Below are positions 10,254-47,862 of a DNA stretch of 64,000 nt, one piece after another. The DNA is taken from contig JAHEJT010000006.1 in NCBI GenBank assembly GCA_024638765.1, positions 1-64,000 on the forward strand, given 5' to 3'. The notes below the pieces were generated by a model, which saw only the letters and a program-made list of their open reading frames with translations, made no database searches and had not been told where the DNA came from. The stretch's first letter is position 1. The number at the start of each line of letters is the position of its first letter. The stretch is from Verrucomicrobiales bacterium (lineage in GTDB: Bacteria; Verrucomicrobiota; Verrucomicrobiia; Verrucomicrobiales; DEV007). The translations under genes and the position numbers were made by a program.

Positions 10254-10790
10254 CCTCTCTTCCTCTGAATATGTCTTCCGCGGGGTGTCTTAGCGGTATT
10301 TCAGGTTGGTTAGAACTTCGTTCAAGGATGAGCTAGTGAGATCCGCCATTGACCGGGGTAAAATTGGTAATCCTGGATCAACGTATGCCTGGTTTTCAGT
10401 ATATGAGACGTCAGGCGTGGGCTGTATGTTCGACAGAAACGAGATTTGTTATGGTAATTTAAATTTTTGGGCCAGTTAGGTTTGGAAATATACAATAATT
10501 ATTGAAATTTGTCAAAATGGGCTCAGTGACCAATTTCCCGATGGCGTCAGGGCGGCCCCTTGAATTCGACGAATCGGGCTGGGGTTCTATGCGGAAGGCA
10601 CGGGCTGGGACCAGGCACGGGCTGGGACCTGTCCCTATCGGGGCACCGGGCTGGGACCCGTCCCTATCGGGGTTTCTGTCCCTATCGGGGCACGGGCTGG
10701 GGCCTGTCCCTATCGGGTTTCGGGGCCGGAGGGCGAGGCCCCCCGGTTCGTTCAGAATCCCGATGGAAACCGGAGAGACGCGTGCTCCGT
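10254..10790. other. 537-bp intergenic region: AT-rich part and repeat cluster
   Basis: No coding sequence is supported. Bases 10300-10530 are AT-rich compared with the surroundings and probably hold the promoter of the patatin/fatty-acid operon, though no clear -35/-10 pair could be assigned. Bases 10598-10718 carry a tandem repeat described separately. Confidence 0.6.
10598..10718. repeat. About 29-bp tandem repeat with GGGACCTGTCCC core
   Basis: Two almost full units (10615-10643 and 10644-10672), a truncated unit before them (10598-10614), a short unit (10673-10690) and a further unit (10691-10718). Most units carry the near-palindrome GGGAC-CT-GTCCC followed by TATCGGGG. The 10-mer GACCTGTCCC (10626-10635) also occurs, in either orientation, in the arrays flanking the RAYT transposase at 46-48 kb. 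Confidence 0.85.
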
Positions 10791-30286: not shown

Positions 30287-33241
30287 ATGACAGCAGTCGC
30301 CAGAGATTTCCTCGGGTGGGACCACCCGTTGCCGGAAACGGCTGCGGCGTATCTCATTGGGTCAGTCGCCGAACCCGGCGTCTTTCTCGATCTCAGCAAC
30401 GCTCTCGTCGTGGTGCCGACCCGGAATTCCGGACGCAGGCTTCGCGAGGTGCTGGCCCAACTCGCGCATCGTAAGGGAAAAAAGGCTCTCCTTCCGCCCC
30501 AGGTCGTGCCCCCGGAATTCCTCCTTAGCCTCATCTCCCGGCCGGCGGAAGGCCGTGTCGCCGCCCCTCTCGAAGCCACGCTCGCCTGGGTGGGATTGCT
30601 GCGCGAAATCGACCTGGAGCAATACCGCACCCTCTTCCCCGTCGATCCGGCCCGCCAGGATTTCGGGTGGGCGCTGGCCACCGCCGAGGGCCTCGTCGAG
30701 CTCCGGCGGCAGCTCGGGGAATCCGGACTCGAGATTTCTGACATCGCCCGCGCGCTGGCGCCCGATTTCGAGGAAAAAGCCCGCTGGCAGGAATTGCGCG
30801 AACTGGAGAGGCAGTTCAAGGAGCGCCTGCACGCCGGTGGTCTGCGTGACTTGGAATCGACCCGCAAAGCGAATGCGCAAAGCCCGGCGGCTCCCGACGG
30901 CATCCGGGAGATCGTCCTGCTGGCGGCGCCCGACCCGGTGCCGCTGGCGATTGCAGTGGCCGGGAAATTGCGCGAGACCATGCCGGTCAGGGTGGCGGTC
31001 TATGCGCCGGAATCCCTGCAGGATCATTTCGACGCGTGGGGCCGTCCCATCGTGGAGCGATGGATGGCGCGCCGGACATCGATTCCGGATTTCGAGCGGA
31101 CCGTGCATCTGGCCGCCGATCCCGAGGCACAGGCGGGCCTGGCGGCGGCGATTGCGGCGCGGCAATCGGAAATCCACAATGCCGTCGCCATCGGTGTCCT
31201 CGATTCCGAGGTAACGCCCGTGCTCGAGCGGAGGCTGTTGGAAAAAGAGATCCGACCTTTCAATCCGCAGGGCACTTCTCTCGAAGGCGAGGGTGTCATT
31301 CACCTGCTGGACACGCTCAAGAGGTTGATGCGCGAGGGCGCGCTTCGCGATTGCACGAGCCTGCTGCGCTGCCCCGACTATTCCGATTACATGGCGGCGA
31401 AGACAGGGACGTGGGAACTTTTCGCGGTCCTCGAGGCCCTGGATGTGCTGGGGCAGAAGCGCTTCCCCGCATCGCTGAAGGACGCGCGCCATTTTCTGAA
31501 AGAGGATAACGAGTGGAGGCGGGAAACGGAGGGAGTCCACCGGAGTCCGGGCGCGGAACAGGCGGAGGCGGCGCTCGACAAGACCGTGGAGATGCTGCAG
31601 CACCTGGAAGAAACGCCCCTGGGCGATGGTCTCGCGGAGTTGTTGAGCGCGATTTTTGCGAACCGGGTGGAGGACCCCGAATCGAGGACCGCGAAACTCT
31701 TGTCCACCGTGGGGGCGGTGACCTTGCAGCTGCTCGCACAGCTCGAGGACGCCGGGGCGGACGCGAAAACGCTGGCCAAGCCGGATCAAATGGAGTTGTT
31801 ACTGCAGTTTCTCAAGCGGGAGACATGGTTTGAAGACCGGCTGGCCGATGCCGTGGATTTGCAGGGCTGGCTGGAACTGTTCTGGGAGGACGCTCCGCAC
31901 CTGGTGATCACCGGGTTCAACGACGGACTCGTGCCCGAGGCGGTCGTGGGCGACATCTACCTGCCCGAATCCCTCGCGGAAATCCTCATTCAACGGCGCG
32001 AGATCGCTTTAAAAACCAACCGGCAGCGGCTGGCGCGGGACGCTTACCTGCTCGAATCGATGTGCGCGTGGCGCGACGCGGAAGGCGGCCGGATCGATTT
32101 GCTCTTTGGAAAAGCAACCAACGCCGGGGATCCCCTGCATCCATCGCGGTTGTTGCTCCGCTGTCCCGACGATGAACTGCCGGAGAAATGTCTGCGTGTC
32201 TTTGCGGAAGCGACGCCCACGGGCACCAACTTATCGTGGACTCCGGGATTCCAGCTCTTGCCCAACGCCCCGCGCACTCCTGCGGCGAAGGGGGACGGCG
32301 CGGGCGCGGACAAAAAAATTTCCGTGACCGCATTCAAGACCTATCTGCAGTCGCCCTTTCATTTCTATCTCAGGCACGTGGAAGAAATGGGCGTGATCGA
32401 TCCGGAAAAAGTCGAGATGGACCCATTGGATTTCGGCAATCTCTGTCACCGGGTGCTGCAGGATTTCGGGGAAGACGTATCGCTGCGTGATTCGCGTGAA
32501 GCCGCGGAGATCGCGGCTTTCCTGCGCGAAAAACTAAAGAGCCGCGCCGGCGCCCTCTTCGGCAACTCACCCACTCTCCCGGTGCAGATCCAGCTCGACA
32601 CGCTCCGGAAGCGGCTCGAGAAAGCGGCGGAGATTCAGGCGCAGGAGAGGGAGGCGGGCTGGGTCATCTTGGACGTGGAATACAAGCTGCACGATCGTCC
32701 TGACGGAAAAAAATTCGAAATGGGCGGCTATCACATCCGCGGCATGATCGACCGCATCGAGCGCCACGAGGAAAGCGGCGAGATCCGCATTCTCGATTAC
32801 AAGACGGGGGACACCGCGAAGTCGCCCGCGGGCGAGCATATAAAGCAGGTGACCGCGGCCACGCGCATGGACCTGGTCAAGGAATACGCGGTGTTTGAGA
32901 TCGAGGGAAAGACATGGCGCTGGATCGATCTGCAGCTGGCGCTTTACCGGCTGGGATTGCGGGAGGATTACCCGGATGCAAAGATCCGGTGCGGATACTT
33001 CAACCTGCCGCGCGCCCTGCTGGAGGTGGGCGTGCAGGAATGGGAGCCGATGGATGACGCCCTGGACCCCGCGGCCGGACGTTGCGCCGCCGGCGTGATC
33101 GGAGCGGTGGAGGCCGGCATTTTCTGGCCGTCGGAATCCGTGTATCAGAACGATGATTTCGTGGACATCCATCTCAACGTCCCGGAAAGCACGGTCGATT
33201 CAAAATACTTAACAGGTTCCGGAAGGGGCGCGCGCCGATGA
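30287..33241 (+). CDS. AddB-like PD-(D/E)XK exonuclease / inactive helicase subunit
   Basis: The protein has 984 residues from the ATG at 30287. The frame runs open from 29645, but the first 214 codons overlap the GNAT gene in antisense and are not part of the protein. The N-terminal section (ALVVVPTRNSGRRLREVL) matches AddB-type proteins, which have a helicase-like body without an intact Walker A. Near the C-terminus, SVTAFKTYLQSPFHFYL and then IRGMIDRIE and ILDYKTGD form the PD-(D/E)XK nuclease. Together with the gene that follows it should process DNA double-strand ends for recombination. The overlap of ATGA with the next start shows tight coupling. Chi recognition cannot be inferred. Confidence 0.85.
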   Translation: MTAVARDFLGWDHPLPETAAAYLIGSVAEPGVFLDLSNALVVVPTRNSGRRLREVLAQLAHRKGKKALLPPQVVPPEFLLSLISRPAEGRVAAPLEATLAWVGLLREIDLEQYRTLFPVDPARQDFGWALATAEGLVELRRQLGESGLEISDIARALAPDFEEKARWQELRELERQFKERLHAGGLRDLESTRKANAQSPAAPDGIREIVLLAAPDPVPLAIAVAGKLRETMPVRVAVYAPESLQDHFDAWGRPIVERWMARRTSIPDFERTVHLAADPEAQAGLAAAIAARQSEIHNAVAIGVLDSEVTPVLERRLLEKEIRPFNPQGTSLEGEGVIHLLDTLKRLMREGALRDCTSLLRCPDYSDYMAAKTGTWELFAVLEALDVLGQKRFPASLKDARHFLKEDNEWRRETEGVHRSPGAEQAEAALDKTVEMLQHLEETPLGDGLAELLSAIFANRVEDPESRTAKLLSTVGAVTLQLLAQLEDAGADAKTLAKPDQMELLLQFLKRETWFEDRLADAVDLQGWLELFWEDAPHLVITGFNDGLVPEAVVGDIYLPESLAEILIQRREIALKTNRQRLARDAYLLESMCAWRDAEGGRIDLLFGKATNAGDPLHPSRLLLRCPDDELPEKCLRVFAEATPTGTNLSWTPGFQLLPNAPRTPAAKGDGAGADKKISVTAFKTYLQSPFHFYLRHVEEMGVIDPEKVEMDPLDFGNLCHRVLQDFGEDVSLRDSREAAEIAAFLREKLKSRAGALFGNSPTLPVQIQLDTLRKRLEKAAEIQAQEREAGWVILDVEYKLHDRPDGKKFEMGGYHIRGMIDRIERHEESGEIRILDYKTGDTAKSPAGEHIKQVTAATRMDLVKEYAVFEIEGKTWRWIDLQLALYRLGLREDYPDAKIRCGYFNLPRALLEVGVQEWEPMDDALDPAAGRCAAGVIGAVEAGIFWPSESVYQNDDFVDIHLNVPESTVDSKYLTGSGRGARR

Positions 33242-45698: not shown

Positions 45699-46543
45699 GG
45701 AGGAGAAAACCGGGCCTGAAGGAACACGCGGAAGATTACTTCCGCGAATGAGACCGGACGGTGGAGAGATTAATCGCTGTTACCTGAAAAAGGGCAGAGG
45801 GTGATGAGCTCTTTTTCTATTCGATAAAGCGAGTTCCGATCGGGACTCTGGTTCACATGGAGGGACGTGCCGACAAGGGGGGTAGAGCGACAATAAGTTA
45901 GCCTCAATCTTGTGGAATGCAACGCCGGGCGCCGGAAGAAATAAAAAAACGGCACCTCACGCAAATGTTAGCCGGCGCCTTGTATTTCTGAGACAAGAAA
46001 GAGCTAAGATTCGCGAGAATGGAGGAGGGTTGTATGCACAAACGGCGCGCCGGGATTGCTGCCGGCCGGGATTGCTGCTTAGGGACGGAAGACTATCCTT
46101 CTAGCAGGGCCTCTTTCTGAAGCAGGACATGAAGCAGGGACAGACGACATGAAGCAGGGACAGGACAGAATGGCACTAAGATAAGAACATTGCTAAGGGA
46201 CAAACATCGCTAAGGGACAAAACATCGCTAAGGGACAAAACATCGCTAAGGGACAGGTCAGTTATAGGAAGAAGCGTTGAAAACATCGCTAAGGGACAAA
46301 AACATCGCTAAGGGACAGGTCAGTTATAGGAAGAAGCGTTGAGTGCGCAAAAGGTGATGTGATGAGATGCCCGGGAGTGTAGATTTCTACTAGAAATTCT
46401 AGCGCTTCAATCGCCTTTGCTCAAGACGGGGCACCGGCGGCCTTTTTTCTGGGCATCTGATAGTCCGGCGGCCGCAATCTCGCGACGGAAGATGCCGCGA
46501 TCCGCGGAACACGTTGGTTTTTACCTCGGGAATGTCTTTTCCG
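45699..46543. other. 845-bp gene-free region with repeat array
   Basis: No coding region is supported. It holds the upstream region of the DUF1800 gene, a duplicated CCGGGATTGCTGC motif near 46052-46078, a repeat array (46118-46342) and a 22-bp imperfect palindrome TAGATTTCTAC/TAGAAATTCTA at 46380-46401. The region ends at the stop codon of the RAYT gene. Confidence 0.6.
46118..46342. repeat. RAYT-side repeat array (AGGGACA units)
   Basis: Begins with three units of the type ATGAAGCAGGGACA, then six copies of CATCGCTAAGGGACA (one with T for C). Two of these continue into GGGACAGGTCAGTTATAGG and a further AAGAAGCGTTGA, so a 31-bp direct repeat lies at 46250-46280 and 46312-46342. The 10-mer GGGACAGGTC is the reverse complement of GACCTGTCCC in the array on the other side of the transposase gene. 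Confidence 0.85.
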
Positions 46544-47620
46544 CTAAACCAGGCGGGGCGCGCCGCGCGGGCCGTCCCTGGCATCGATCACGCGCACCCG
46601 CAGATCGCGCATCACGTGGAGTTCTCCCCAATCGGCACCACGCATAGCGTGCGCGCCTTTTCGGCGTTTTCGTCCGAAGCGCTCCCGGTTGGCCTCGAAG
46701 ATCTCGTCCACGTATTCTTTAGTGCCCAAGACTGCTCCGTCGCAGAGATAACGCACCCGACAACGCAATGCCTGCGGCACGGAGAGATGACCCTCGCGCT
46801 CTTGCGTGGCCTGCACCGCACCAGTCACAAATCCCCGTTTGGCTCCGCGCCCGTAATCATCCCCGTGGCGCTGCTCTCCCTGGTCAAAGAGCAGCAGGCG
46901 GTAGCGGGCCGCGGTCTGTCGCCAGTCGGCCCGGGCCGTCTCAGCCGGCGCCTCGTCGGCGGCTTCGAAGATCCGGCAGAAACCTTTTCGGGCGAGCGAT
47001 TTTCCAGCGACCGCTTCCCCATAGCCGCACCAGCGGTAATCCTTGGGATCTTTGACCATGCCCGCGCGCACCGGGTTCAGATCGATGTAAGCGGCCATGG
47101 TGAGAAGGGCGTCTTCGCTGCCTTCCACCAGCACGCTCTTGAAACGCTCTTCCCAGAGGGTGCCGCGTCGCTTGTTTTTGCGGTTATACCACTGGGTGAA
47201 GCGCTGCTTGAGTTCTTTGACGAACACCGATAAATCTCCGATGCGCGCCTCGTAGCGGGCCAGAATCTCGCGCTCCCAGGTCTTCGAGCCTGAGGCGGCG
47301 GCGCGCTCCAGTTCCTGGCGCACTTCCAGGACCTTGGGCGCGTCGTAAAGGAGCGGCAGCTTGCGCAAGAGTTCCTCCGGGGTCAGGCGTTGGCGTGAGT
47401 CGTCTACCGACGGTGGGGCAGGCACGTCGAGCAGGAGGTGGAAGTGATTGGACATGAGGCAGTAAGTCACGATCTGCACTTCGAGAAAGGCCTCGAGCCG
47501 CCGCATGGTCTTGCGGAAAAACTCTTTTTCCTCGCGATCGAATATGAACTGCCGGTCCACGACCCGGGACATGCAGTGGTAGAAGGAGCGGCCTTCGCCG
47601 AGGAGGCGGGGATTTCTCAT
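46544..47620 (-). CDS. REP-associated tyrosine transposase (RAYT, Y1 HUH family)
   Basis: The protein has 358 residues from the ATG at 47620. It shows the Y1 transposase pattern: FYHCMSRVVDRQFIFD, then the HUH motif NHFHLLLDVP (His59, His61) and the catalytic Tyr candidate in WYNRKNKRRGTLWEERFKS (Tyr145). DLNPVRAGMVKDPKDYRW is the usual C-terminal signature. The C-terminal 110 residues are basic. Such proteins process single-stranded DNA at short palindromic repeats and are usually stable single-copy genes, not classic insertion sequences. The open frame continues upstream for 77 codons through an array of 18-bp repeats, translating them as GQLGTC units; this is not taken as part of the protein. 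Arrays on both sides are candidate substrates. Confidence 0.9.
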   Translation of the reverse strand: MRNPRLLGEGRSFYHCMSRVVDRQFIFDREEKEFFRKTMRRLEAFLEVQIVTYCLMSNHFHLLLDVPAPPSVDDSRQRLTPEELLRKLPLLYDAPKVLEVRQELERAAASGSKTWEREILARYEARIGDLSVFVKELKQRFTQWYNRKNKRRGTLWEERFKSVLVEGSEDALLTMAAYIDLNPVRAGMVKDPKDYRWCGYGEAVAGKSLARKGFCRIFEAADEAPAETARADWRQTAARYRLLLFDQGEQRHGDDYGRGAKRGFVTGAVQATQEREGHLSVPQALRCRVRYLCDGAVLGTKEYVDEIFEANRERFGRKRRKGAHAMRGADWGELHVMRDLRVRVIDARDGPRGAPRLV

Positions 47621-47629
47621 GGCGGGGAT

Positions 47630-47658
47630 ATACTGTTCAAAAGAACAATATCTGTCAA
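47630..47658 (-). promoter_or_regulatory. Possible RAYT promoter overlapped by an inverted repeat
   Basis: On the minus strand, TTGACA (47653-47658) is followed after 17 bp by CAGTAT (47630-47635), a weak -10. A 9-bp inverted repeat (plus-strand ATACTGTTC 47630-47638 and GAACAATAT 47643-47651, one G-T pair) covers the -10 and spacer. Such an overlap could allow repression or a leader hairpin, but the -10 is poor and lies unusually close to the start codon. Confidence 0.3.
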
Positions 47659-47670
47659 CCCCTCTTTCAA

Positions 47671-47840
47671 ATAACTGACCTGTCCCCAATTGGCCGCATG
47701 TCCCCAATTGGCCGCATGTCCCCAATTGGCCGCATGTCCCCAATTGGCCGCATGTCCCCAATTGGCCGCAAAATAATTGACCTGTCCCCAATTCCGTCCG
47801 TCCCCAATTCCGTCCCCAATTGGCCCCCAATTGGCCGCGT
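47671..47840. repeat. Array of 18-bp repeats between divergent genes
   Basis: Five identical head-to-tail copies of TGTCCCCAATTGGCCGCA fill 47681-47770 exactly. They are flanked by ATAACTGACCTGTCCCC at 47671-47687 and AATTGACCTGTCCCC at 47775-47789, then degenerate GTCCCCAATTCC and CAATTGGCC pieces up to about 47838. The unit holds the palindrome CCAATTGG. The array sits between the RAYT gene (minus) and the PEP-CTERM gene (plus). Confidence 0.92.
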
Positions 47841-47862
47841 TCGATAACCACAAGAAAAGTTC

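Follow-up and report, generated by a model that had tools for sequence, protein, structure and literature searches.

A probable TIRtron-like locus in a Verrucomicrobiales bacterium, with a RAYT transposase, its own weakly palindromic GGGACAG repeat family and a putative LexA box

The window, which is the whole 64,000-nucleotide stretch of DNA analysed here, from the genome of an uncultured Verrucomicrobiales bacterium, contains what is probably a TIRtron-like locus, in which a Y1/HUH RAYT is accompanied by its own weakly palindromic family of GGGACAG repeats and would most likely be repressed by LexA. We assign this reading a probability of about 0.7. It is built on the amplification of a cognate repeat, a fixed position of the repeat core upstream of the gene, direct arrays of the repeat and a LexA-type box, all of which are present in the sequence.

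The RAYT coding sequence occupies positions 46547-47620 of the minus strand, with its stop codon at 46544-46546, and encodes 358 amino acids. The initial annotation had placed a RAYT at 46544-47620, and a Pfam profile match confirms the product as a Y1_Tnp protein (PF01797, E 3e-12). At E 0.001, Y1_Tnp is the sole Pfam domain, and neither a C-terminal HTH nor a Bac_DnaA_C-like domain was returned by that search. The protein combines the Y1_Tnp domain and HUH motif with Y---NP, as class 2 Y1 transposases (TnpA_REP) do, and alignment reveals an insertion between HUH and Y. Inspection of the aligned rows shows that NHFH and AAYIDLNP are kept in 7/7, except for one with NS for NP. The score against NF047646 (REP_Tyr_transpos) is 67.6 bits, below a cut-off of 80 that is an annotation threshold and not a biological definition, and a PDB profile is matched only marginally (2xm3, E 0.0035). 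Homologues (E <= 1e-20) are found in 45/75 same-family genomes, some of which carry 27 or more, and a named scan places them chiefly in Verrucomicrobiales, with few in Kiritimatiellia, Opitutaceae and Acidobacteriota. The minus-strand reading frame 46544-47851 continues across the upstream array up to a GTG at 47851 (435 amino acids); the frame is open through the array, and automatic annotation may therefore add a false repetitive N-terminus (GQLGTCGQLGTC...). The features of the locus are as follows.

46126..46163, plus strand: outer downstream array, 20 bp x 1.9, GACATGAAGCAGGGACAGAC (tandem-repeat analysis)
46186..46255, plus strand: downstream array, 18 bp x 3.9, AACATCGCTAAGGGACAA (tandem-repeat analysis)
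46219..46342, plus strand: 62-bp direct duplication (62 bp x 2) with the array end and a full motif (tandem-repeat analysis)
46246..46265 and 46308..46327, plus strand: full downstream copies CTAAGGGACAGGTCAGTTAT, ending in GGGACAGGTCAGTTAT (46250-46265; 46312-46327) (motif search)
46469..47714, minus strand: unit common to the second RAYT copy (contig C272), 93% identity, 1249 bp, from GGCCAATT-GGGACAGGTC to 75 bp past the stop
46547..47620, minus strand: RAYT (Y1/HUH transposase) coding sequence, HUH = H59-F-H61, catalytic-type Y178 in AAYIDLNP
47634..47647, no strand assigned: LexA/SOS-type palindrome TGTTCTTTTGAACA, 13 bp upstream of the RAYT start codon, between core and start
47671..47690, minus strand: upstream end element ATTGGGGACAGGTCAGTTAT, GGGACAG core 66 nt from the ATG, position conserved in homologues
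47681..47770, minus strand: upstream array, 18 bp x 5.0, TGCGGCCAATTGGGGACA on the RAYT strand (tandem-repeat analysis)
47773..47792, minus strand: second upstream full copy, a variant, ATTGGGGACAGGTCAATTAT, variant motif at 47773-47788 (motif search)
47784..47836, minus strand: degenerate outer part of the upstream array, 16-, 12- and 11-bp units (tandem-repeat analysis)

Arrays thus stand on both sides of the RAYT with GGGACAGGTCAGTTAT in opposite orientations, just as the initial annotation had described: the plus-strand copies begin at 46250 and 46312, and the upstream copy at 47671-47687 reads ATAACTGACCTGTCCCC, which is GGGACAGGTCAGTTAT on the minus strand. The further description of the upstream copy as the same motif reversed holds for the GGGACA core and for the complete terminal motif, which the two sides have in common, but not for the rest of the 18-bp unit, whose other 12 nt are locus-specific (GCTAA-GGGACA-AAACATC on one side vs CAATTG-GGGACA-TGCGGC on the other). 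A separate small array of GGGACAG units, whose flank differs (CCCCGATAGGGACAGGTCCCAGCCCGTGCC), lies at 10626-10710 of the window on the minus strand, with no RAYT adjoining it.

A search of the 5.43 Mb genome, as had been proposed, reveals that the motif is a dispersed repeat family, far more frequent than chance would give. The 16-mer GGGACAGGTCADYTAT (<=1 mismatch) occurs 45 times against 0 for its reversed control, a 20-mer consensus (<=3 mismatches) 58 times against 7, and the decamer GGGACAGGTC 72 times against 10. The sequence around the decamer copies follows a consensus such as (A/C)TTAGGGACAGGTCATCTATC, CTAAGGGACAGGTCAGTTATT or ATTGGGGACAGGTCATTTATTTG. With a duplicated contig end removed first, 43 copies (<=2 mismatches) fall into 20 clusters. 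The copies are extragenic, with 3/30 testable copies in open reading frames vs 67% coverage of the same loci by such frames. Neighbouring copies within 300 bp of each other are direct in 21/22 cases and opposite in 1.

To relate this family to the RAYT, its sequence was compared with the repeats of relatives. For the decamer, relatives that have this RAYT and relatives that lack it show no clear difference in enrichment (p = 0.095; within one genus p = 0.54), and because the 10-mer is non-discriminating it was replaced by a swap test of the 16-mer against its variants. Exact copies of the 16-mer are almost absent from 74 relatives, with 3 among the matches listed. The genome G026 holds 21 near-matches, nearly all of them GGGACAGGTTAT[CT]TAT, which is the variant at its own RAYTs (L157 and L159), and G028 carries GGGACAGGTTAATTAT, the variant at its RAYT L137. 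Reciprocally, exact copies of GGGACAGACAATYTRT number 7 in G014, 6 in G015, 1 in G001, 1 in G060 and 0 in the window's own genome; the 13 copies in G014 and G015 all surround the RAYTs L153 and L129, which themselves carry GGGACAGACAATYTRT. The counterpart of GGGACAGGTCAGTTAT in these two genomes is the variant GGGACAGACAATCTAT. With the motif amplified in this genome, and in relatives the variant of their own RAYT, these comparisons identify the GGGACAG motif as the cognate element of this RAYT, which the enzyme would presumably cleave. The comparison of relatives with and without the RAYT that had been suggested as a check therefore fails with the 10-mer and succeeds with the extended 16-mer, and the earlier proposal of a repeat family matched to the RAYT is supported. 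The pattern GGGACA-N6-20-GGGACA was also considered as a RAYT-independent, family-wide marker and proved unhelpful, its reversed control being hugely repeated in some genomes. In G027, G021, G061 and G018 this reversed pattern (ACAGGG-N6-20-ACAGGG) reaches 187 to 774 copies per genome and represents an unrelated high-copy family.

The position of the motif relative to homologous RAYT genes was also analysed. In a first set of homologues, GGGACA is present within 150 bp upstream on the RAYT strand in 37/91 and on the reverse strand in 0; in a second set of 52 the corresponding counts are 22 vs 4. A GGGACAG-type core was located in 50 homologues, and in 30 of these it falls between -52 and -68 relative to the ATG. 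The nucleotides that follow GGGACA vary by lineage. A downstream inverted copy is present in about 9/85 homologues, and downstream copies at a score >=26 comprise 7 inverted vs 2 direct, the latter serving as the orientation control. The inverted flanking pair anticipated in the initial annotation is consequently a property of the window locus but not a general rule, and what the homologues conserve is the GGGACAG core, some 60 bp ahead of the start codon, rather than an inverted partner. Where upstream and downstream copies were compared (L129, L153, L157 and L159), the upstream copies read ..TTTGT or ..TTTAT and the downstream inverted copies ..TCTAT, a consistent difference between left and right.

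Copies of the RAYT itself delimit the unit that would move. The C272 RAYT and the window RAYT diverge outside 46469-47714, and because their homology ends before the downstream inverted array, that array falls outside what was copied; the C272 RAYT has no inverted partner. On this comparison and the direct-orientation control, the downstream inverted repeat was rejected as a defining part of the element. In G053, near-identical RAYTs lie in unrelated flanks and have their left end in common, at (TTTAAA)GGGACAGG, with right ends that vary. Truncated 5' parts of RAYTs are also seen at L210 (G000:C125, about 30297-30598) and L193 (G053); the two truncations fall within one codon of each other by protein alignment (after MRRL / LLRK), and both genes continue into GGGACAG repeats.

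An alternative explanation is that these are ordinary slippage-prone tandem arrays which the RAYT merely adjoins, with no enzyme action on GGGACAG. Tandem arrays can expand without a transposase, the 10-mer is equally enriched in some relatives that lack this RAYT, and the downstream array lies outside the copied unit, all of which slippage would accommodate. It would not lead one to expect a core whose strand and position are fixed upstream of RAYTs across Verrucomicrobiota, an amplified variant in each genome that is the variant of its own RAYT, or copies spread over ~20 extragenic clusters instead of one array, and we consider this explanation improbable.

Between core and start codon, the window RAYT carries a palindrome of the form TGTTC-N4-GAACA. 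This box occurs at 14 places in the genome vs 0 for the control, where the adjacent genes, all identified by sequence reading only, include ssb (two boxes), four Y1_Tnp genes (one truncated), two IS91-like transposases, a spl-like gene of the radical SAM type and a dnaE2-like gene. The IS91-like transposase frames L101 and L106 (G000 C90:1789, C164:2058) start 6 bp after an exact TGTTC-N4-GAACA, which parallels the LexA control of ISCR in Proteobacteria. Another exact LexA-type box stands at L109 (G000:C275:36443), a different, shorter Y1_Tnp-like protein missed by the Pfam search. Because the same box precedes lexA in 25/30 related loci of the family genomes, TGTTC-N4-GAACA is identified as the LexA site. 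A LexA motif of Verrucomicrobia was reportedly described by Erill in 2016, and agreement with that consensus was checked here on the lexA promoters.

The box recurs in front of other RAYTs. With <=1 mismatch allowed, it is found at -23 to -43 in 12/84 homologues, against 0.16 expected by shuffling and 0 in control windows, and is absent from the other 72/84; a second homologue set adds two more exact boxes. In Verrucomicrobium sp. BvORR034, the RAYT at L260 carries an exact box at -61. When the box is treated as a label on the tree, 6 changes are obtained, at least 4 of which are forced by well-supported branches, and by our reconstruction the box stands upstream of RAYTs in at least four separate lineages. 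A literature search for RAYT with LexA/SOS returned no paper linking the two, and the LexA-type box before RAYTs, at this locus and in several relatives, appears to be a new observation. It suggests that RAYTs can be switched on by DNA damage. No canonical sigma-70 promoter scored at the RAYT box.

Whether LexA is the protein that reads this box was considered with respect to the lexA gene itself, which is present in 68/75 family genomes and was not found with two models in the window's own assembly (93% complete). Because of this result, SOS control of the window RAYT rests on the box and on the relatives. Binding by a non-LexA repressor, or a box that survives as a relic, would be consistent with an assembly in which lexA was not found; we nevertheless regard either as unlikely, given that the same box precedes lexA in those 25/30 family loci and precedes ssb and the spl-like and dnaE2-like genes in the genome itself.

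Less probable still is that GGGACAG before RAYTs is itself a regulatory site, either an operator or a sigma or activator site, and not a transposition end. A position fixed ~60 bp upstream of the ATG, beside a second regulatory palindrome, is what such a site would display. The motif is, however, dispersed, arrayed and present on both sides of some RAYTs, and the near-identical RAYT copies of G053 meet their unrelated flanks exactly at the motif.

The secondary structure of the motif was assessed both within the genome and across species. In own-genome copies, complementarity of the flanks does not exceed that of shuffled sequence (z 1.1), and the folding energies of RAYT-upstream regions and of single copies are no better than those of control windows; a strong hairpin, tried as a candidate, was accordingly not found. 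Across species, the core flanks of 80 RAYT-upstream copies are complementary more than shuffled (z 5.3 combined), as in CTACAAA..TTTGTAG, with covariation of z 3.5 and 3.6 in two separate sets and 3.4 after thinning, values that relatedness may inflate. Because the flanks covary and own-copy folding is null, the motif is best described as a weak stem with GGGACAG towards the loop, and not as a REP hairpin. The initial annotation was right to set the motif apart from classic REP hairpins, since single copies fold at control level and neighbours are direct; given the covariation over the upstream set, however, the motif is not strictly linear. A GTAG (or GT[AG]G) tag was not found beside the copies, where TTAG, CTAA or ATTG precede GGGACAG. 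A classic REP/REPIN system with GTAG-tagged hairpins in inverted pairs would suit the HUH and Y---NP motifs of the Y1 protein, the dispersal of extragenic copies and the covarying upstream flanks (z 5.3), but is rejected as highly unlikely on tag and orientation, with no GTAG beside the copies and 21/22 neighbours direct; the stem in own copies is also not significant (z 1.1).

For the favoured reading of a TIRtron-like locus, the following mechanism is proposed. The end specific to this RAYT would be the GGGACAG core together with the next 6-9 nt, at which the enzyme most likely nicks and rejoins single-stranded DNA. Processing of such ends would seed the extragenic copies, and the direct tandem arrays would form when a rejoined end brings along about 12 nt of its 5' flank. 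LexA most likely represses RAYT transcription, and DNA damage would lift this repression and also expose single-stranded substrate for the enzyme. Cleavage, mobilization and SOS induction are the steps that we infer.

More tentatively, and with the odds somewhat against it, a branch of Verrucomicrobiota RAYTs may have joined the SOS regulon repeatedly, such that on DNA damage LexA would release the RAYT, which would process single-stranded DNA at its own GGGACAG ends; the RAYT unit would also move, its left end placed precisely at the tag. The recurrence of a LexA box ahead of RAYTs, seen in at least four lineages, bears on what these mostly immobile transposases do for the host and on why they are retained: it offers a testable answer, namely that they act in the DNA-damage response, a time of plentiful single-stranded DNA. 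An SOS-joined branch, if true, would account for the spread of the repeats as well as the retention of the RAYT genes. In addition, the locus points to a matched repeat family in a kind of RAYT without a previously found hairpin repeat partner, and the species-specific variants offer a natural swap test between species.

Among known systems, the window RAYT locus probably belongs with the TIRYT/TIRtron kind, whose repeats carry GGGGWSAS (Di Nocera et al. 2013, PMC3733652). Both comprise a RAYT-like Y1 transposase with inverted repeats unrelated to GTAG REPs, as seen at the window locus, and a moderately abundant repeat family with single, dimeric or grouped members; the upstream copies here (GGGGACAG) fit GGGGWSAS and the downstream copies (AGGGACAG) match it at 7/8. 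Unlike TIRYT/TIRtron, the window locus has large direct tandem arrays and a LexA-type box, and neither its near-identical second copy nor the majority of homologues have the inverted partner.

Subclass 2.1 of TnpA_REP, which equals RAYT group 1 of Bertels (PMC6006769), and subclass 2.3 are without an assigned repeat partner in that paper, in contrast to the cognate repeat family indicated here by sequence comparison. The window RAYT resembles them in its class 2 Y---NP, its long protein, the HUH-Y insertion, the long C-terminal part and the lack of a GTAG REP. The C-terminal HTH / Bac_DnaA_C-like domain of subclass 2.1 was not found in it by Pfam, and subclass 2.3 is characterized by inter-core insertions, a specific C-terminal domain and a long protein, to be compared with 358 amino acids and a HUH-Y insertion here. 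With the REP/REPIN systems of E. coli and Pseudomonas the locus has in common short, dispersed extragenic elements matched to one Y1 enzyme, and differs in having no GTAG tag, weak hairpins, and copies arrayed directly rather than in inverted pairs.

A link to the TAACTGA repeats of Beggiatoaceae via a common heptamer was dropped as probably coincidental, the paper on those repeats mentioning neither GGGACA nor transposases (PMC4679880). The IS200/IS605 elements IS608 and ISDra2 offer Y1/HUH chemistry and subterminal ends, and the RAYT unit is likewise multi-copy in some relatives; unlike in those elements, the right end of the RAYT unit is imprecise, and the 2xm3 profile match is marginal. 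For the LexA box, the comparison is with ISCR transposases, which belong to an IS91-like element of Proteobacteria and are under LexA control as tested at the bench (PMC13393415). The box of the Verrucomicrobiota RAYTs differs in being known from sequence only. The two systems share an HUH transposase gene with a LexA box in its promoter region, and ISCR is the nearest parallel that the literature search returned.
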